Part shown: in pieces, positions 12 through 7,676 of the stretch
How the letters are laid out: each line of letters begins with the position of its first letter
Numbering within the stretch: the first letter of the stretch is position 1
Assembly (NCBI GenBank): GCA_001796415.1
Contig: MGML01000120.1
Span: forward strand, 1 to 7,676
DNA length: 7,676 nucleotides
Direction of reading: 5' to 3'
DNA from: Chloroflexi bacterium RBG_13_46_14
GTDB lineage: Bacteria; Chloroflexota; Dehalococcoidia; Dehalococcoidales; UBA2162
Translations under genes and position numbers: made by a program
The notes under the pieces: model-generated
Told to the model about the DNA's origin: nothing
What the model saw: the letters and a program-made list of their open reading frames with translations, nothing else
The model's database searches: none

Positions 12-1772
12 CTACTTCCAGGCATCTATACTGAAGGCATTGCCGCGGTCACCGGCAAGCTGGACACAGGCTTCTTCCTGGCCGCCGCCAATGACGATAC
101 AGAATTCGTTCGGATCATCCCCCGCTGCTGGAACCATATAGTCGTCGGGGAGTTCCTTCCATGGTTTGCCGGATGTTTTTTCTATACCCGTCCAGCCGTT
201 TCTCCGGAAATCTGGCCAGGAACGTCCCCTGTATTTCTTGAGAGGTTCGAAGCCTTTCTCCCATAGGTATTTGTATACATCGTCCTTGGACTTGAATCCC
301 AGGTCCACTAAGTGCTGCGCCATTTCAGGAACCATTACTATCGTCCAGGCCCCTTCGCGACCTGCAAATAACTCGGGTACCAGGTAATCCAGCCAGTTGT
401 GCGGTCCGGGAGTCCCTTTCACATCGAATTTCCGCGCTATTCCGCCGTGACCGCTTTTTTGCAGGGCTCGATACCCGCCGGGTGAGAACTGGGAACCGAG
501 TATTCCGCCGGTTATCATCTGGACCATGACGATATTTTCGTCCTTTTTATACCCGAACTCCTCGTTAAGACCTTTCCATCCCGAAGGAAGACCATCAGCG
601 TTCTCCGCGTAGGCAACGCCGCCATTGTTCAGTGGACTTCCCAGGCAGCCCATCCTATTTACTCCCGGTACCGCTCCTCCAAGATTGATCGCCATTAGTT
701 GATAAGCACGTCCGATCGGTGAATTCGCGACGCTGCCCGGTCCGAACATGCCGCAGCCGGTGTTCATGCCTATTTCCTTAACGATCGATCCGGAAACGCA
801 GACTGCCTGGCTGGGGAAATTGGTCGTGCTGATGGGAGTCCCCGACTGGGCAATCGCAAGCACTATCGGCAGGTGTTCCGGTCTGCATCCTGCCATGACG
901 GCATTGACCGCGACCTGTTCCACAGTCGCCGTACGTTTTAATGGCTGGAATCTGACGACATCGCCTTTCTTTATCTCCAGCCGGCCTCCGCTGGTCGCTT
1001 CTCCCTGGGTTGCCAGCCTGTTGGTCTGGTGGGTGATTATTTCGTCCGGCTTGTGGCTGGTTCCGGTCAGCATCCAGGCTACTTTTTCCTCGGTGGGAAT
1101 TATTATCGGGAAGCCGTCCGTATATTTCGCTATCGGGGCTTGTACAGGTAATGGGATCCACTCGGTCTGCTGGTAGAAGTCCTGAGCTTCCTCGAGCGTG
1201 CCCTCGTATATTATTCTTTGCTGAGGGATAGTGTACAAACCACTCTCTTTTTCCTTGTCGGTCAAAGGTCGTGTGAGAGCTTCGAGCATAGGTTCAATCC
1301 AGTTGTCCACGTCATCGGGACCGGGAAGCATTCGTGACGCGTGCAGATAGCGAATCTTGGGTACGCCGCTTACCAGCGCTTCCTGTTTGACCATCTGTTC
1401 CTGGTCTTCGAGGTCGACCACTACAGTCGGAATACCTGCTTTTTCAAGCTTGGCCAGATAAGGCAACTGCCTCCAGACGGCGCCGCTTCACCAGCATATC
1501 GCCTGTATCAGACCGTCGGCCGTTTTCATTTCTTCTTCCGATATTTCGACCGGTACGATACCGTAGGTCTTCTTGACCTTCCAGTCGACGTTCGGATAAT
1601 CACTCTTCAGTTTTTTCTCCAGCGGAATCGTGATATCCGGTTCGCCGGTAATGCTGATATAGATTTCCTTGCCGTCGAGTGTGTCAAGACGCGGTGCCAG
1701 GGGAAATGTCTTGACGGGTAACTGCATTCCTACCGGGTTGAGACACTTGTAAATTCTGTCCTTTTCAGCCAT
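12..1772 (-). CDS. UGSC-type selenoprotein fused to a large conserved C-terminal domain (586 aa, Sec95)
   Basis: Two minus-strand open frames (1772-1491 and 1487-12) lie in the same frame and are separated only by TGA at 1490-1488, so I read them as one gene with selenocysteine. The start is ATG at 1772, with AGGAG seven bases upstream. Residues 1-130 look like the UGSC (seleno)protein family: an APRLDTLDGK segment near residue 27, then a hydrophobic strand leading to Cys93-Trp94-Sec95-Ser-Gly-Ala, then a helix and strand ending EKAGIPTVVV. Sec95 falls where the first residue of the family's U/C-G-S-C motif sits, and the spacing to the Gly-Ile-Pro segment agrees. Residues about 150-586 form a Gly-rich domain (MAGCRPEHLP, ENADGLPSGWKGLNEE, GSQFSPGGYRA, GIARKFDVKG) shared with the gene at 3924. 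No signal peptide or membrane segment is visible, so it is probably a cytoplasmic redox protein. Its substrate is unknown. The alternative is two separate genes, but that would cut the N-terminal domain in the middle. Confidence 0.85.
1445..1484 (-). promoter_or_regulatory. Candidate bacterial SECIS region just 3' of the UGA
   Basis: Two overlapping hairpins follow the UGA. The first (1484-1462) pairs GGC with GCC and inner GCC with GGC, has a four-base AGUU bulge on the 3' side, and has apical loop GUCUGGA. The loop contains GUCU as in the E. coli fdhF element, but it begins only 10 bases after the UGA, closer than usual. The second (core 1466-1449) pairs UUG-CC with GG-C-CAA around loop UUAUCU, 27 bases after the UGA, but lacks the usual G at the loop start. 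Neither is a textbook match. The position is right; which fold is real is uncertain. Confidence 0.45.
1488..1490 (-). other. In-frame UGA read as selenocysteine
   Basis: The codon order on the minus strand is ATA TGC TGG TGA AGC GGC GCC. The frame is open for 94 codons before it and 491 after it, and protein homology runs straight across. The other six genes contain no internal TGA, so a genome-wide reassignment of TGA to Trp or Gly is unlikely. Recoding as selenocysteine at a redox-motif position is the simplest reading. Confidence 0.85.
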
Positions 1773-1984: not shown

Positions 1985-3328
1985 TTGACCAGCGATCATT
2001 CTCTCGAATGGGTTCGGAAGGATTTTCCATCTTTAAAAAACCTCCAGAACGGAGCCCCGCCTGTCTATTTCGATAATGCCTGCAACACACTTGTCCCAAG
2101 CCGGGTAATAGAAGCGTTTAACGAGTACTATAATAATTTTCCCGCATGCGGTGAAGGCAGGAGCAGGCACTGGTTTGCCCAGGAAGTAACCGATCGTATC
2201 GACGGCAATCCTGACAGGGGAATGAAGGGTTCGCGGCATATAATAAAAGATTTCATCAATGCCGATTCTCATAAGGAAATCATTTTTACCTTGAATTCCA
2301 GCCACGGTGTTAACATCGTGGCACTCGGGACGCAGTTCAAACCGGGTGATGTTGTCCTTCATACCGATAAAGAACATAATTCGAACCTGATTCCCTGGCT
2401 TCGTTTGCAGAAGAAAGGGATCATTAAGGCGATACCCATAGATTCTACAGAAGACAGCGAGATCGACCTGGATATGTTTGAGGATAATCTGAAGAATAAC
2501 CGGGTCAGACTGGTCAGTATGGGATATACGTCGAATCTCACCGGTTATACCCTTCCTGCTAAAGAGATTATCGGTTTAGCTCATCGCTATGGTGCGAAAG
2601 TCCTGCTTGATGGCGCCCAGACTGTACCCCACCAGGCTGTTGACGTTAAAGATCTGGATGTAGATTTCCTGGTATTTTCCATGCATAAAATGTGCGGGCC
2701 GAGAGGTGTCGGAGTTTTTTACGGGAAGGCCGAATACCTGGGAAAAGAAGTCCTTGAAGAAAATGAGACCGAAGACGTGGTATTACCAACCATGCTTGGC
2801 GGCGATACGATTATCGACACTACTTATGAAGAATACAATCTTCTTATGCCGCCGGAGAGGTTCGAAGTCGGTTTGCAGGACTATCCCGGCCAGATAGCCG
2901 CTGGAGCAGCTGCGGAGTACCTGTTAGAAGTAGGTATGGATAATATCAGGGCACAGGAAAAACTACTTAACACATACCTGTCGGAGAAGCTTCTGGAACG
3001 CTACGGTGATCTTGGCTGGTTCAATATACTGGGGCCGAGGGATCCGGCTAAAAGAAGCGGAATACTCTCTTTCGAAATCAAGCGGCCGAACGCCAACGGG
3101 ATAGCCGAGGAACTGAGTGAGAAAAGGAATGTGATGATAAGGGACGGCCAGTTCTGCGTTCATTCCTATCTCAATAAAGTGTTCGGCCAGGGATGGTCGG
3201 GTCCACAGTTACCGAGTAATCAGCGAATGATGTACAGGGCTTCTTTTTACTTTTATAATACTATTGAAGAGTGCGATATATTCCTGGAAACCCTGGATGA
3301 AGTTTTCAGAGAACGTTTTTACATTTAA
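1985..3328 (+). CDS. SufS/Csd-type cysteine desulfurase (or selenocysteine lyase), 447 aa
   Basis: This is a class V aminotransferase-fold PLP enzyme of the group II desulfurase type, which removes sulfur (or selenium) from cysteine (or selenocysteine) as an enzyme-bound persulfide. Visible signatures in order are YFDNACNT at residues 28-35, the EHNSNLIPW motif with His131, LLDGAQ with Asp209 contacting the cofactor, the Schiff-base lysine Lys235 in FSMHK, and the catalytic cysteine Cys391 in IRDGQFC. Length is slightly above the usual 400-420, with extra residues around 255-300. The start is TTG, chosen because AAGGAG lies six bases upstream; an overlapping ATG at 1966 is in another frame. 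The scaffold gene follows after 35 bases. Motifs alone do not separate cysteine desulfurase from selenocysteine lyase. The selenoprotein next door makes a selenium role attractive, but that is inference. Confidence 0.9.
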   Translation: MTSDHSLEWVRKDFPSLKNLQNGAPPVYFDNACNTLVPSRVIEAFNEYYNNFPACGEGRSRHWFAQEVTDRIDGNPDRGMKGSRHIIKDFINADSHKEIIFTLNSSHGVNIVALGTQFKPGDVVLHTDKEHNSNLIPWLRLQKKGIIKAIPIDSTEDSEIDLDMFEDNLKNNRVRLVSMGYTSNLTGYTLPAKEIIGLAHRYGAKVLLDGAQTVPHQAVDVKDLDVDFLVFSMHKMCGPRGVGVFYGKAEYLGKEVLEENETEDVVLPTMLGGDTIIDTTYEEYNLLMPPERFEVGLQDYPGQIAAGAAAEYLLEVGMDNIRAQEKLLNTYLSEKLLERYGDLGWFNILGPRDPAKRSGILSFEIKRPNANGIAEELSEKRNVMIRDGQFCVHSYLNKVFGQGWSGPQLPSNQRMMYRASFYFYNTIEECDIFLETLDEVFRERFYI

Positions 3329-3363: not shown

Positions 3364-3771
3364 ATGGATGAAATAGTAGCCGAAAAATACAAGGAATTGA
3401 TGAGAGAAGGCTTTAAAAATGCCGGTTCTTTTGAAAAACCAAGCTACTTTATCGATTCGAAAGCGGAGGGTATACACATCTGCGGTAAGGGCGAGAGCGA
3501 TTATATCAACGTGTACGTCAGGGTCAAAGACGGTATCATCGATGATATACGGTATCTGTGCAGCTGTGATCCTACCGCTAATGTGGTTATCGAAGCCTTG
3601 TGTGAACTGACGAGAGGTCTCACCATCGAAGAGGCCAGAAATATCCCGAAAGAGAAATTCTACGAGTGGATTGGCAGTGAAGGTGGTGGAATCAGGCGCA
3701 AGGTCTGGGGAACTATAGAACTTATCAACCGCGTCTTCAACCGTACTGCAAACTACGCATCCCCTGAATAG
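3364..3771 (+). CDS. NifU/IscU-like scaffold protein, 135 aa, third cluster cysteine missing
   Basis: The protein resembles the NifU N-terminal / IscU family, which receives persulfide sulfur from a desulfurase and builds Fe-S clusters in the cytoplasm. Family-like segments are HICGKGESDY (Cys40, matching the first ligand), the strand VRVKDGIIDDIRYLCSCDP (Cys66, Cys68, matching the second ligand region) and ELTRGLTIEEA, which matches the G-K-S/T-x-x-E-A helix. The third ligand is absent: the K-[IV]-H-C-S region of IscU reads RRKVWGT here (residues 112-117). The Asp after the first cysteine is Lys. An extra cysteine, Cys80, is present. It could be a divergent scaffold, a sulfur or selenium carrier, or a regulator. 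The ATG is preceded by GGAG eleven bases away and AGG nearer. It is probably cotranscribed with the desulfurase. Confidence 0.8.
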   Translation: MDEIVAEKYKELMREGFKNAGSFEKPSYFIDSKAEGIHICGKGESDYINVYVRVKDGIIDDIRYLCSCDPTANVVIEALCELTRGLTIEEARNIPKEKFYEWIGSEGGGIRRKVWGTIELINRVFNRTANYASPE

Positions 3772-3923: not shown

Positions 3924-5216
3924 GTGGAAAGAATCTTGGAACCGATGATGGATGCCCTTGTGCGACCTTTAACCGCCAAAGAACAGGAAGGCGGAATATG
4001 GGAAACTCCCGATCCCAGGATTCTGTTCGAGGGAACTCTTGAGGAAGCTGAAGAGTTCTATATGCAGGAAGAAATAATCCCGCAGATCCAGAACTCTCCT
4101 GTTTGTAAGTATGGCGATGGCCTTCCGATAGTCGTCCCCACCGAGGAAAGAGTTGCTGCTATGCTGAAAGGAACCAGTCACAAACCCGATGAGATACTTA
4201 CCTTCCAGACCGATCATGTTGTCGATGTCCGGCATACCCAGATGGGACGAACCGGTAAGAAGGGTGACCCATGTACGTTCCTGCCCATGGCAAGAAAAGC
4301 GACGGTCGAGAAGATAGCCACCATCGGCGTAATGGCTGGATGCGAACCCAGGCACATGCCCATTCTGCTGGCAATGGCTGAAGCAGGCGGCGGATGCGGT
4401 GACGGACGCGGGGGTATGCAATACGTGATCAGCGGTCCTATTGCCAGGGAAGTCGGAATGAATTTCGATGTGAATGTCCTCGGACCCGGTAACCGTTCGA
4501 ACAGGGCTCTCGGTCGGGCAGCCGACCTGATGTGGAGAAACCTTGGCGGGAATATCCCCGCGGTTACGAATTGCGGTGTCCAGGGAACTGGTATGAACAA
4601 CTGTATCCCCGAGAATGCCGATGCTTTACCACCCGGATGGAAAGGCCTCAATGAAGAGTATGATTTTAAGAATGACGAGAGTGTCATCGTTCACATTGGC
4701 GGCGGTCAGGGTCAGGGATGGCAGGGCTCTCAGTTCTCTCCCGGCGGTTATCGTGCCTTCCAGAAGAGCCCTCATGGTGGTATCGCAAGGCGACTCGGAG
4801 TGAAGGGCGTACCCGGTCCGAAGAACTGGATCGAGTACCTGTTGCCCAGTTTCTGGAGAGGTAGCGAGGGAGGTATCACCTTCCTGATGCTTCCCGAAAT
4901 GGCTTATCACCTCTATGAATGCGGATTCAAGTCCAAGGACGACGTCTACGAGTGGTTGTACCAGAAGAGTTTTATGACCGTTGGAGAGTACCGTACTCAC
5001 TCGTGGCCGGATGTCTGGACCAATGCCTGGAAAGGTATTGAGCGAGTATCGGGCAAGCCCTGGAAAGAGTTATCCGATGACGAGATGGTTCCGGCAATGG
5101 ATAGCCCATACCAGGCCTGTATCATTGTTACTGGTAATGGTGAGGAAATATCTCTCTGGGGCGGCGGCCGCACACCGGCAGTCGATGCCGCTTTCAGTAT
5201 CGATAACTGGCGCTAG
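3924..5216 (+). CDS. Paralogue of the selenoprotein C-terminal domain, lacking the UGSC head (430 aa)
   Basis: The protein aligns along its whole length with residues about 158-586 of the selenoprotein at 12-1772, with roughly half the residues identical. Shared blocks include EPM(M/L)xAL(V/T)RPLT, GTLEEAxxFY, GTSHKPDEI, ATVExxAxxxVMAGC, ENADxLPxGWKGLNEE, GSQFSPGGYRA, CGFKSKDDVY-like, SGKPWKEL and the C-terminal AFSID-W. The N-terminal selenocysteine domain is absent. The in-frame codons before the GTG (3897-3923) still match the paralogue (LPGPEN against LPGPDD) up to a TGA at 3894-3896, so the coding match begins before any standard start codon. GTG 3924 has only a weak GAG upstream; ATG 3945 is the alternative start. 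It may be a working stand-alone domain or a 5'-truncated copy. The clean 430-codon frame and conservation favour function. It follows the scaffold gene by 152 bases on the same strand. The biochemical role is unknown. Confidence 0.8.
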   Translation: MERILEPMMDALVRPLTAKEQEGGIWETPDPRILFEGTLEEAEEFYMQEEIIPQIQNSPVCKYGDGLPIVVPTEERVAAMLKGTSHKPDEILTFQTDHVVDVRHTQMGRTGKKGDPCTFLPMARKATVEKIATIGVMAGCEPRHMPILLAMAEAGGGCGDGRGGMQYVISGPIAREVGMNFDVNVLGPGNRSNRALGRAADLMWRNLGGNIPAVTNCGVQGTGMNNCIPENADALPPGWKGLNEEYDFKNDESVIVHIGGGQGQGWQGSQFSPGGYRAFQKSPHGGIARRLGVKGVPGPKNWIEYLLPSFWRGSEGGITFLMLPEMAYHLYECGFKSKDDVYEWLYQKSFMTVGEYRTHSWPDVWTNAWKGIERVSGKPWKELSDDEMVPAMDSPYQACIIVTGNGEEISLWGGGRTPAVDAAFSIDNWR

Positions 5217-5439: not shown

Positions 5440-6237
5440 TTAATGAACGCTGAAACGGGCGACACCTGGAGGATTCAGGAACTCCCATTTTCCCGTAACA
5501 CCGAAATTCCTGGCAGCTACGTCTATATGAAGCATGGCAATACCGCAGCATAAGCGCTTCGGCATTGTGGATTCTCGCCTCAGTTTTTTATCGTTCACGG
5601 CTACCGTAATAGAGTTTTCGTCCAGGAGAAACAGCCACGGCTGCCTGTTCACGGCGGACGGAGCGATCCTGGCAGCCTCAAGAGACAGTTTCATCCACTT
5701 CGGCCACTGTGACTTCTTTATACCTCTGGTCGTCTCGGAAAGAGATTTTCGCCTGTGCATCAGGCCGAAACCTGACAGTACTCTCTCCTCGAAATTCAAC
5801 CTTTTCTGCGCGTACCCCACCGGTGTTATCGCATATACCTTTTCATTTTTCCGGAGGTCGACGAGTGAATCGACAAGCTCTCTCTTGAACGTCCCCCCGA
5901 CCCAGCATGTGTTCAGACCGGTCGCTTCCGCATCCAGAACGATACCCTCTCCCATATATCCTAGCTGTTCCTCAACTGCTCGATGCCTGGCGTTGCCGAT
6001 AAAGGCAATAAACGATTTGGCTCCTTTGATCGTGCCATAAGCTCCGACAATTCCCTTGAAAACGTTATCCGGTGGCTCCTGGACGAACACGGAACGTGCA
6101 CTCTCGAAAGGACGGAAATTTTCACAGACAGACTTTATACGTTTCAGGTGATTATCTTTGGGAAGCCGCTCGTCATACCGCCTGCGTGATCTTCGTTGCT
6201 CGATAACCTTGTACCATCTGGATACCGGAATTTCCAT
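5440..6237 (-). CDS. Nitroreductase-family flavoprotein, TM1586-like two-lobed type (265 aa)
   Basis: This family uses FMN and NAD(P)H to reduce nitro or other electron-poor compounds in the cytoplasm; the natural substrate is unknown. The N-terminus has the family's IEQRRSRRRYDERLP segment (Arg cluster binding the flavin phosphate). The middle has GYMGEGIVLDAEATGLNTCWVGG (residues about 94-116) and the VYAITPVGYAQKR strand. The second lobe has ARIAPSAVNRQPWLF and CCGIAMLHIDVAARNFG, repeating the fold, as in the putative TM nitroreductase family (PF14512, recalled). I chose ATG 6237 because the family similarity starts there and GAG lies four bases upstream. ATG 6279 is an in-frame alternative giving 279 residues, but its AGGA is only two bases away. 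It converges on the paralogue gene and is transcribed away from the methyltransferases, so it is probably an independent gene. Confidence 0.85.
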   Translation of the reverse strand: MEIPVSRWYKVIEQRRSRRRYDERLPKDNHLKRIKSVCENFRPFESARSVFVQEPPDNVFKGIVGAYGTIKGAKSFIAFIGNARHRAVEEQLGYMGEGIVLDAEATGLNTCWVGGTFKRELVDSLVDLRKNEKVYAITPVGYAQKRLNFEERVLSGFGLMHRRKSLSETTRGIKKSQWPKWMKLSLEAARIAPSAVNRQPWLFLLDENSITVAVNDKKLRRESTMPKRLCCGIAMLHIDVAARNFGVTGKWEFLNPPGVARFSVH

Positions 6238-6368
6238 GTGACTCACTCTTATTGATCTATTTACCTGAAAGTGTATCATATTCCTGCCGAATTCGCCTGC
6301 TTTTTCTGCCTGAAACGTCTCCTTATTAATTTCCTTCCCTCGTCCCTCACACTGTGCTGTTTACTATA

Positions 6369-6397
6369 TTGACACTCCTCGATAGCCGTCATATAAC
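6369..6397 (+). promoter_or_regulatory. Strong sigma70-type promoter for the leader and methyltransferase genes
   Basis: A perfect TTGACA at 6369-6374 and TATAAC at 6392-6397 are separated by exactly 17 bases. Transcription would start near 6404, about 230 bases before the methyltransferase start codon, leaving a long untranslated leader. Confidence 0.65.
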
Positions 6398-6517
6398 TCA
6401 ACCATCATAATCAAGGGTAAATAATTATCGAAAATGAATAAATATTACCGGAACGCACAGCCTCATACCGTCATCGTTATTACAGGCAAGGGTACCTCGC
6501 CGGGCATGGCGCGTTTC

Positions 6518-6548
6518 CGGTTTTATTATCTGACCTAGAATAAAATCG
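6518..6548 (+). repeat. Ten-pair hairpin in the leader
   Basis: CGGTTTTATT (6518-6527) pairs with AATAAAATCG (6539-6548), including one G-U pair, around the 11-base loop ATCTGACCTAG. It lies 19 bases before the terminator stem. Confidence 0.5.
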
Positions 6549-6567
6549 AATTGAAAAGAAACGACTG

Positions 6568-6603
6568 AGCCCGGGAGGTGAAAACCCCGGGCTTTTCTTA
6601 TTT
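6568..6603 (+). terminator. Strong intrinsic terminator before the methyltransferase
   Basis: AGCCCGGG (6568-6575) pairs perfectly with CCCGGGCT (6586-6593) around a ten-base loop, followed by TTTCTTATTTT. The U-tract is on the plus strand, so it acts on rightward transcription. It lies about 30 bases before the methyltransferase ATG. Confidence 0.75.
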
Positions 6604-6631
6604 TAGGAAAGAATAACTAAAGGAGATGTAT

Positions 6632-7384
6632 ATGGTTAACGACAATAAAGAAAGATTCGAAGGCTACGATCCGGAGTATTACGACCTTACGTTCGGACAT
6701 CATTTCGGTGATATCCCCTTCTACAAGAACATCACAAAAGATATCAAAGGCAAGGTCCTTGAGATTGCCTGCGGCAGCGGCAGGATCTACCTTGAGCTAC
6801 TCAAGGCCGGTGTTGATATTTACGGCATCGATCTCTCGGAGAAAATGCTGGACAAACTTAAGAAAAAAGCGGAAGAAAGGCATCAGGAAGCAAAGGTATC
6901 TCAGGCCGATATGAGGAATTTCAACCTTGACGAGACCTTCGAGATGATCATCATTCCGGCACGATCGTTTCTGCACAACATCACCATCGACGACCAGCTT
7001 TCCACGTTGAAATGCTGCCGCAACCACTTTGATGAAGGCGGCAGGCTGGTAATAAATTTCTTCTATCCCCACCGAGAAGTCATGGCTGCAAACTATGGAA
7101 AAGAAAGAAACAAGGAAATGGCAAATCCGGTTGAAGGAATGGAGTTGATTACCTGGTCGGATTTCGTTAATGAACCCGACCAGGTGATCGTTTCCAAATT
7201 CACCTGGAAACAGGATGGAAAGGTAGTATCGGAATTCAAATCGGAGCTTGCCTATATCTATAAACGTGAATTCGAACTGCTTCTCAGACTGGCCGGATTC
7301 TCATCCTGGCAGGTCTATGGAGGATTCGAGTACAAGCCGCTCGAATCGATTAACCAGGAAATGGTCTGGATAATAAACAAATAA
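6632..7384 (+). CDS. Class I SAM-dependent methyltransferase (250 aa)
   Basis: This is a Rossmann-fold methyltransferase that would move a methyl group from S-adenosylmethionine to an unknown acceptor. Motif I is VLEIACGSG at residues 42-50. The acidic residue ending the second strand is Asp67 in YGIDLS. QADMRNF at about residue 96 is the adenine-side motif, and FEMIIIPARSFLHN is the motif IV strand with the active-site loop. The C-terminal part (ITWSDF, then a long beta-rich stretch) resembles the methyltransferase-25/small-molecule type. I place the start at ATG 6632, not the in-frame ATG 6626, because AAAGGAG ends six bases upstream of 6632 and abuts 6626. It is preceded by a terminator-bearing leader and followed 18 bases later by another methyltransferase, so the two are probably cotranscribed. 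Confidence 0.88.
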   Translation: MVNDNKERFEGYDPEYYDLTFGHHFGDIPFYKNITKDIKGKVLEIACGSGRIYLELLKAGVDIYGIDLSEKMLDKLKKKAEERHQEAKVSQADMRNFNLDETFEMIIIPARSFLHNITIDDQLSTLKCCRNHFDEGGRLVINFFYPHREVMAANYGKERNKEMANPVEGMELITWSDFVNEPDQVIVSKFTWKQDGKVVSEFKSELAYIYKREFELLLRLAGFSSWQVYGGFEYKPLESINQEMVWIINK

Positions 7385-7402
7385 AAACTATGGAGAAAAA
7401 AT

Positions 7403-7676
7403 ATGGATAAGACAATACCCTGGCACGAGGATGACTCGTTCTGGGAAACATGGGGTCCCATCATGTTCAACCCTGGAAAGATCGCCGCCGCGAAGGAGGA
7501 GATGAATAAGGTAATCACCCTGGCGGAATTGCAGCCGGGAGCATCTGTCCTGGATCTCTGTTGCGGGATCGGCCGATGTTCACTCGAACTGGCACGCCGG
7601 AGCTTCAGCGTGACCGGCGTCGACCGGACAGCCAGTTACCTTGCCCAAGCCCGGAAACAGGCTGAACAGGAAAACC
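7403..7676 (+). CDS. Second class I SAM-dependent methyltransferase, N-terminal part (cut by window edge)
   Basis: ATG at 7403 has GGAG seven bases upstream and opens a frame that stays clear to the window end (91 codons). Motif I is VLDLCCGIGR at residues 49-58, and the acidic residue of the second strand is Asp74 in TGVDRT. The N-terminal WHEDDSFWETWGPIMF segment is typical of small-molecule methyltransferases of the methyltransferase-11/25 group. It is distinct in sequence from the methyltransferase just upstream, so the pair is not a recent duplication. The acceptor is unknown and the C-terminal part lies outside the window. Confidence 0.8.
   Translation, partial: MDKTIPWHEDDSFWETWGPIMFNPGKIAAAKEEMNKVITLAELQPGASVLDLCCGIGRCSLELARRSFSVTGVDRTASYLAQARKQAEQEN

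Follow-up and report, generated by a model that had tools for sequence, protein, structure and literature searches.

The window, the whole stretch of 7,676 nucleotides analysed here (contig MGML01000120.1 of Chloroflexi bacterium RBG_13_46_14), carries at one end a minus-strand gene that is predicted to encode a selenoprotein of 586 residues, with selenocysteine (Sec) at residue 95. The joined frame comprises codons 1–94 (1772–1491), a TGA (1490–1488), codons 96–586 (1487–15) and the terminating TAG (14–12), and the TGA at codon 95 is the sole interruption. In the list of open reading frames (ORFs) it appears as two minus-strand ORFs, one of 94 codons beginning with ATG (1488–1772) and one of 484 codons beginning with TTG (12–1466), lying in the same frame with the TGA and seven sense codons between them. 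An initial annotation of this DNA had described this split, the shared phase and a joined protein of 586 residues, and its coordinates and lengths agree with the ORF list and with the read-through translation. The features of the gene are as follows.

12..1772, minus strand: predicted selenoprotein gene, 586 residues with Sec (U) at residue 95; the frame is open except for one TGA; 24 of 24 scored homologues have one in-frame TGA, and P0121 and P0122 are Cys homologues.
1488..1490, minus strand: UGA codon predicted to be decoded as selenocysteine, residue 95; conserved in the homologous loci L001, L002 and L003.
1464..1466, minus strand: TTG taken by gene callers as the start of the 484-codon gene, corresponding to Leu-103 within the hairpin; from the ORF list, the database protein P0001 and the presence of TTG in 24 of 24 genes found by protein search.
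1461..1472, minus strand: candidate bacterial selenocysteine insertion sequence (bSECIS) hairpin AGGC-AGUU-GCCU, with 19 nt from the UGA to the apical loop; from pairing in alignment A3, the bSECIS rule and the minimum free energy (MFE) fold of the window segment.
1341..1742, minus strand: UGSC-type domain, residues 11–144, spanning the UGA; PF24696, E = 4.5e-5, with a Rossmann-like fold in the AlphaFold2 model.
15..1247, minus strand: C-terminal domain, residues about 176–586; predicted local distance difference test score (pLDDT) of the model mostly >85.

The evidence that the TGA is translated comes from homologues. A protein search with L003 as query in 156 genomes of the order of the relative G002 found three genomes with matches at E ≤ 1e-30 (G001, G002 and G397). 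From 42, 27 and 18 candidates respectively, eight copies per genome were scored, the query itself being among the resulting 24. These loci were re-read without use of any DNA motif, and the statements made here on the TGA, on the Gly, Ala and Val codons following it and on the TTG rest upon them. All 24 have exactly one in-frame stop, a TGA at the codon for residue 95. In a translated search the TGA is kept in L001 (95% identity), L002 (86%) and L003 (63%); L001 belongs to Dehalococcoidia bacterium W403, and its 95% identity to the window extends over the gene. One distant homologue in each of the genomes G041 and G064 (33–34% identity, residues 6–246) likewise carries a single TGA, within the context UWGAC. 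The codons at +2, +3 and +4 after the TGA specify Gly in 22, Ala in 23 and Val in 23 of the 24 genes, with third bases spread over three or four letters. Using residues 1–160 as query, 37 proteins were matched, only three of them full-length. The initial annotation had looked to homologues of the joined protein with Sec or Cys at residue 95 as a check, and both are found; Cys occupies this position in P0121 (WCHGAIW, 53% identity) and P0122 (WCSGATY, 47%), both of which are full-length and continuous. P0121 sits among Sec genes in the tree, and its Cys may therefore have replaced a Sec. The comparison establishes that the frame is translated across the UGA, the residue at position 95 being predicted as Sec or Cys throughout the close family. 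By eye the N-terminus of P0122 resembles a lipoprotein signal, and some relatives may act outside the cytoplasm.

It is very unlikely that the locus comprises two real genes, with the UGA ending a 94-residue protein and a 484-residue protein translated separately from the TTG. This is how the databases draw it; P0001, the closest among the matches listed for the whole protein, has 484 residues and 95% identity to the window protein, and the best 120 of 2192 matches are of 452–501 residues, covering at most 83% of it. Moreover the window's TTG is preceded, at 3 bases, by GGAGG, and the C-terminal domain exists without the Sec domain both in the window and elsewhere. However, the GGAGG is not universal, being replaced by GGGGG, ACAGG or GGGAG in other copies, the codons separating UGA and TTG show a coding pattern of evolution, and the UGSC profile crosses the break. 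The Cys homologues are continuous across the point where the initial annotation had allowed that a true gene boundary might be found. The '484-codon gene' starting at the TTG is an artefact. Still less probable is a pseudogene, or an error of sequencing or assembly that turned a Cys codon into TGA. TGA is one base removed from the Cys codons TGC and TGT, Cys homologues exist, and the window also has a paralogue without the N-terminal domain. Yet the TGA is found in 24 of 24 scored homologues from three genomes and at 95, 86 and 63% identity, in a frame that is otherwise intact; its recurrence in many separate genes and separate assemblies runs counter to the assembly error that the initial annotation had named as a possible refutation.

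A hairpin lies directly downstream of the UGA. Every one of the 48 genes in alignment A3 has the same core, GCAGUUGCC, which places an AGUU loop at 19 nt from the UGA. These 48 remain from 51 frames after removal of L033, judged a chance match, and of L032 and L034, which were too distant; frames were kept by the residue pattern after the stop, by which L065 (USGT) was left out. Loci found by DNA pattern were selected for the TGA, the Gly-Ala bases and the hairpin core, and A3 and the pairing counts are thus those of a selected set. The outer pair is A-U in 29 genes, G-C in 15 and G-U in three, and is unpaired in one. The second pair is broken in 8 of the 48, and the inner two pairs are invariant. 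The exchange of G-C and A-U in the outer pair couples a base that changes the amino acid (Arg AGG to Gly GGG) with a silent one (Pro CCU to CCC). Codon usage in the genes found by protein search is constrained. Codon +7 is CAG and codon +8 is TTG in 24 of 24, and TTG makes up 13.5% of Leu codons in the 23 of these genes that are complete. Only 3 of 211 conserved degenerate columns in these 23 genes have a single codon throughout, and the hairpin accounts for two of the three, Gln-102 (CAG) and Leu-103 (TTG).

An excerpt of PMC13188914 quotes the bSECIS rule as a loop of 3–9 nt, a stem of 4–16 bp, a G in the first two loop positions and a distance of 16–37 nt from the UGA. The hairpin has a 4-nt apical loop with G at the second position, a stem of 4–5 bp and a spacing of 19 nt, so that loop, stem and distance all lie within these bounds. 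It differs from bSECIS elements in the identity of its core across the 48 genes, some of which were found by a pattern containing that core. In the more divergent L160 and L163, found by the Pfam model, RQAAY stands for RQLPY, GCAGGCUGCC replaces the core and there is no TTG; the arms AGGC and GCCU are retained, enclosing a different loop whose second base is G. Comparison of the genes demonstrates nucleotide-level conservation of this putative hairpin directly downstream of the UGA. By analogy with established bacterial Sec decoding, SelB with Sec-tRNA(Sec) would bind the hairpin, and Sec would be inserted at the UGA instead of termination.

The initial annotation would have fallen had Sec machinery been missing; by kinship it is probably present. 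SelA, SelB and SelD above curated cut-offs, and tRNA-Sec above the gathering score, were found in both relatives tested (G001 and G002). Among 14 control genomes matches over the cut-off were obtained for selB in two, selA in one, selD in two and tRNA-Sec in five; the SelB, SelD and tRNA-Sec searches also gave matches below the cut-off in control genomes, all 14 having a match of one sort or another, and only matches over the cut-off were used. ARAGORN places the anticodon tca at three tRNA-Sec loci, and the SelD genes of G001 and G002 each carry a TGA. Two tRNA-Sec matches in G002 (L012 and L014, on contigs C76 and C84) have identical scores and both lie at contig ends, so are perhaps one gene at an assembly break. 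Reading of the UGA as another amino acid (Trp or Gly, under genetic code 4 or 25) is very improbable. The frame is indeed open under either code, but there is one TGA at one place per scored gene, with Cys there in two homologues, and a tRNA-Sec with anticodon UCA is present together with SelA, SelB and SelD. The other single in-frame TGAs encountered are in SelD, GrdB-type and UGSC-type genes.

The N-terminal part of the protein forms a UGSC-type domain (PF24696, NF041046), homologous to that family over 134 residues. The UGSC-like fold that the initial annotation had placed across the TGA is borne out by the PF24696 match, which spans it. All 39 aligned family members are matched by the UGSC profile at E ≤ 1, with Sec in the same alignment column as the Sec of UGSC, and some paralogues exceed the PF24696 cut-off (for example 25.5 bits for G002:C3 and 26.6 for G001:C23). 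UGSC, USTC and UDGC proteins with long C-terminal parts occur in the same genomes, and a 'UGSC/Unknown_1' fusion is mentioned in an extract of PMC2398784. The window protein differs from the UGSC family in scoring below both curated cut-offs, in the many copies per genome and in its motif, which is UxxA rather than UxxC. The window motif is USGA, and the 24 relatives found by protein search have U-[SHT]-[GN]-A in 23 cases and USGT in one. The residue two upstream of Sec is unconserved (CWU, AWU and VWU), leaving no conserved CxU pair. Since the motif is UxxA and the upstream Cys is unconserved, the 'redox-motif position' assigned to the Sec by the initial annotation holds by homology, as the column of the U of UGSC, and not by a thiol pair; the motif claim requires amendment. 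The central claim of that annotation is right and well supported.

A second relationship is seen around the Sec. Comparison of this region with a GrdB-family profile, built from two GrdB and six shorter GrdB-like proteins, gave an hhalign probability of 95.1 (E = 3e-8) over 82 columns, with Sec aligned on Sec. Matches of single sequences to the PrdB, GrdH, GrdF and GrdB models are weak, being made by one or two of 16 members with a best E of 0.004. On the profile alignment the putative Sec domain is related to the selenoprotein B of glycine and proline reductases, with homology around the Sec both to selenoprotein B of glycine, sarcosine and betaine reductases and to PrdB of D-proline reductase. 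It differs from GrdB in that the Sec is near the N-terminal end of the window protein and near the C-terminal end of GrdB, and in the absence of UxxC. Some features of the GrdB-type genes themselves were noted. In L186 and L191 the GrdB ORFs end ...VILTST before a TGA and continue GTDTRCGA or GTSTRSGA; the Pfam GRDB model (347 positions) ends at about this point, and looks truncated at the Sec codon. Six short GrdB-like loci (L195, L196, L198, L199, L201 and L205) have VDAV(L/I)LTPx, a TGA and then PxC or SGC, and look like unannotated PrdB-like selenoproteins.

The AlphaFold2 model has a pLDDT of 88.9 and a predicted template modelling score (pTM) of 0.90. The Sec domain is Rossmann-like, with Sec-95 located between the strand 87–91 and the helix 96–111. 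The C-terminal domain has no Pfam or NCBIfam match in profile scans of the window protein. Alignment A2 has just one other Cys that is nearly invariant, Cys-296. It might resolve the Sec; it is also present in proteins that lack the Sec domain, and may for that reason have another task.

Taken whole, the locus is very probably one 586-residue selenoprotein, with Sec inserted at the UGA and a GrdB-like reductive role proposed from its relationships. Sec-95, in the Rossmann-like domain related to GrdB and PrdB, would serve as a selenolate nucleophile in a reductive reaction on a small substrate, the large C-terminal domain acting together with it. There is no neighbouring resolving Cys (UxxA), so a distant Cys (Cys-296) or a partner thiol would be needed to resolve the oxidised Sec. 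That the selenoprotein has some other role, as a thiol-disulfide or peroxide reductase for example, has a considerable probability, somewhat short of even; roles of this sort have been guessed at for UGSC proteins generally. Structurally the model's neighbours are CheY/Rossmann-like domains of a generic sort, which is compatible with such a role. Against it stand the lack of a UxxC pair and of a conserved CxU pair, and the GrdB-family profile match that puts Sec on Sec; there is no thioredoxin among the fold matches listed, which does not in itself exclude one.

A number of observations weigh against the gene being a selenoprotein with a GrdB-like role. The PF24696 match, at 24.1 bits, is 0.9 bit short of the gathering cut-off of 25, and the N-terminal 175 residues score 21.4 bits with NF041046 (E = 1.9e-4), for which the curated cut-off is 125. 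PDB fold searches gave no match at E ≤ 0.001. P0132 (35% identity, full-length) has neither Sec nor Cys at residue 95. The RNAalifold consensus of the hairpin has two pairs only, neither covarying; supported covariation is confined to one pair, with the next pair broken in 8 of 48 genes, and since the paralogues are related to one another the pairing statistics carry less weight. Folded singly, the sequences show no exceptional stability (z = -1.05 for the window; -2.21, -0.77 and +0.24 for three homologues, the MFE fold of the last lacking the hairpin). The Sec machinery is shown in relatives only, and the window has none of the solute-binding genes found beside family copies in G002.

The family is extensively amplified in the three related genomes. 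The DNA pattern gave 16, 22 and 10 matches in G001, G002 and G397 respectively, and none with the reversed pattern as control. The Pfam UGSC model gave 26, 14 and 7, of which 21, 14 and 7 have one TGA. The union of the two gives 31, 23 and 13 TGA-bearing UGSC-type genes in about 3.3, 2.1 and 1.3 Mb, counts on which possible incompleteness or mixing of these assemblies has a bearing. The 15 genes added by Pfam in G001 are of the UxxC kind wherever the motif was read. The closest pair has 75.5% identity among 21 complete copies in G002, 75.3% among nine in G397 and 89% among 15 in G001; with such identities the copies are not strain duplicates. Copies from the three genomes interleave in the tree, whereby much of the multiplication looks older than their split. 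In close relatives the gene has been expanded into a large set of Sec-retaining paralogues, which probably act on different substrates. Two contigs of G002 (C61, about 52 kb, and C53, about 37 kb; L139–L142) carry six and five TGA-bearing genes of the UGSC type, respectively, several of them behind genes for solute-binding lipoproteins. Five of the 26 UGSC matches in G001 (including L164, L179 and L181 on C41, C162 and C106) have no in-frame stop, and L179, the only one of these read at the Sec place, has no Cys there.

Beyond the selenoprotein gene the window contains the following.

1985..3328, plus strand: SufS/cysteine-desulfurase-like gene, divergent from the selenoprotein gene; PF00266, E = 1.2e-81; TIGR01979, 306 bits, below the cut-off of 475.
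3364..3771, plus strand: NifU-like gene beside the desulfurase-like gene; PF01592, E = 8.7e-4, 19.9 bits, below the cut-off of 22.
3924..5216, plus strand: paralogue with the C-terminal domain only; about 50% identity to the C-terminal part of L001, L002, L003, L058 and L059.

In L001 the desulfurase-like gene is in the same divergent place (95% identity), and the NifU-like gene has 94% identity; a link of these two genes to selenium or sulfur supply is possible. The paralogue at 3924..5216 is placed beside P0121 and L147 in the tree. The 150 bases upstream of it contain many stops in its frame, and no N-terminal Sec domain was found there; either the domain has been lost or the gene never had it. 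The remainder of the window (5440–7676) contains a TM1586-type nitroreductase gene and, after it, a tandem pair of methyltransferase-like genes, of which the second runs off the end of the window.

The surroundings of the family copies in G002 are distinctive. Ten of 15 surveyed copies (of 22) are directly downstream of a gene for a family-5 solute-binding lipoprotein on the same strand, an arrangement found in none of 11 surveyed copies in G001 and none of two in G397. At control loci solute-binding proteins account for 1 of 27 and 0 of 32 ORFs, the unit here being ORFs and not copies. Other neighbours of family copies include CoA transferases, enzymes dependent on thiamine pyrophosphate (TPP) and an aminotransferase. 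Together with the relationship to GrdB, this gene context suggests a role in reductive catabolism of imported small compounds. The window's own SufS-like and NifU-like neighbours do not point to such catabolism.

Database entries that are cut at the Sec omit the probable active site, and functional inference from them starts without it. The broader outcome is a paralogous family that retains Sec and whose database entries are cut at the Sec codon. The tally of TGA-bearing genes from a single superfamily, 31, 23 and 13 in the three genomes, may be compared with the 33 UGSC selenoproteins in 26 organisms tabulated in a 2016 survey of >5,200 organisms (PMC5029168, Table 3, an extract of that work). 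The record totals for all selenoprotein families in one genome are given as 57 and 63 in the excerpt of PMC13188914. No report of such a family in Chloroflexota was found in searches of open-licence literature; the groundwater metagenome-assembled genome study cited as reference 66 of PMC13188914 may include such genes.

A Sec lacking a UxxC or CxxU partner in a GrdB-related domain makes the role of UGSC proteins testable, and the paralogues constitute a natural series for how SelB recognises the hairpin. With between 10 and 22 copies matched by the pattern in each genome, and 13 to 31 genes of the UGSC type that bear a TGA, nearly all with Sec, and with most surveyed copies of one genome lying behind a solute-binding lipoprotein gene, a broader reading can be put forward tentatively, with somewhat less than an even chance of being right. 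A Dehalococcoidia-like lineage of Chloroflexota may have expanded a GrdB-related Sec domain without a resolving Cys into a large family of substrate-specific selenium reductases, feeding on many imported organic compounds. Reductive dehalogenases have multiplied in Dehalococcoides, to which the proposed family may be likened. If this is true, these organisms would be heterotrophs dependent on selenium, and their core catabolism would be broken up in present annotation.
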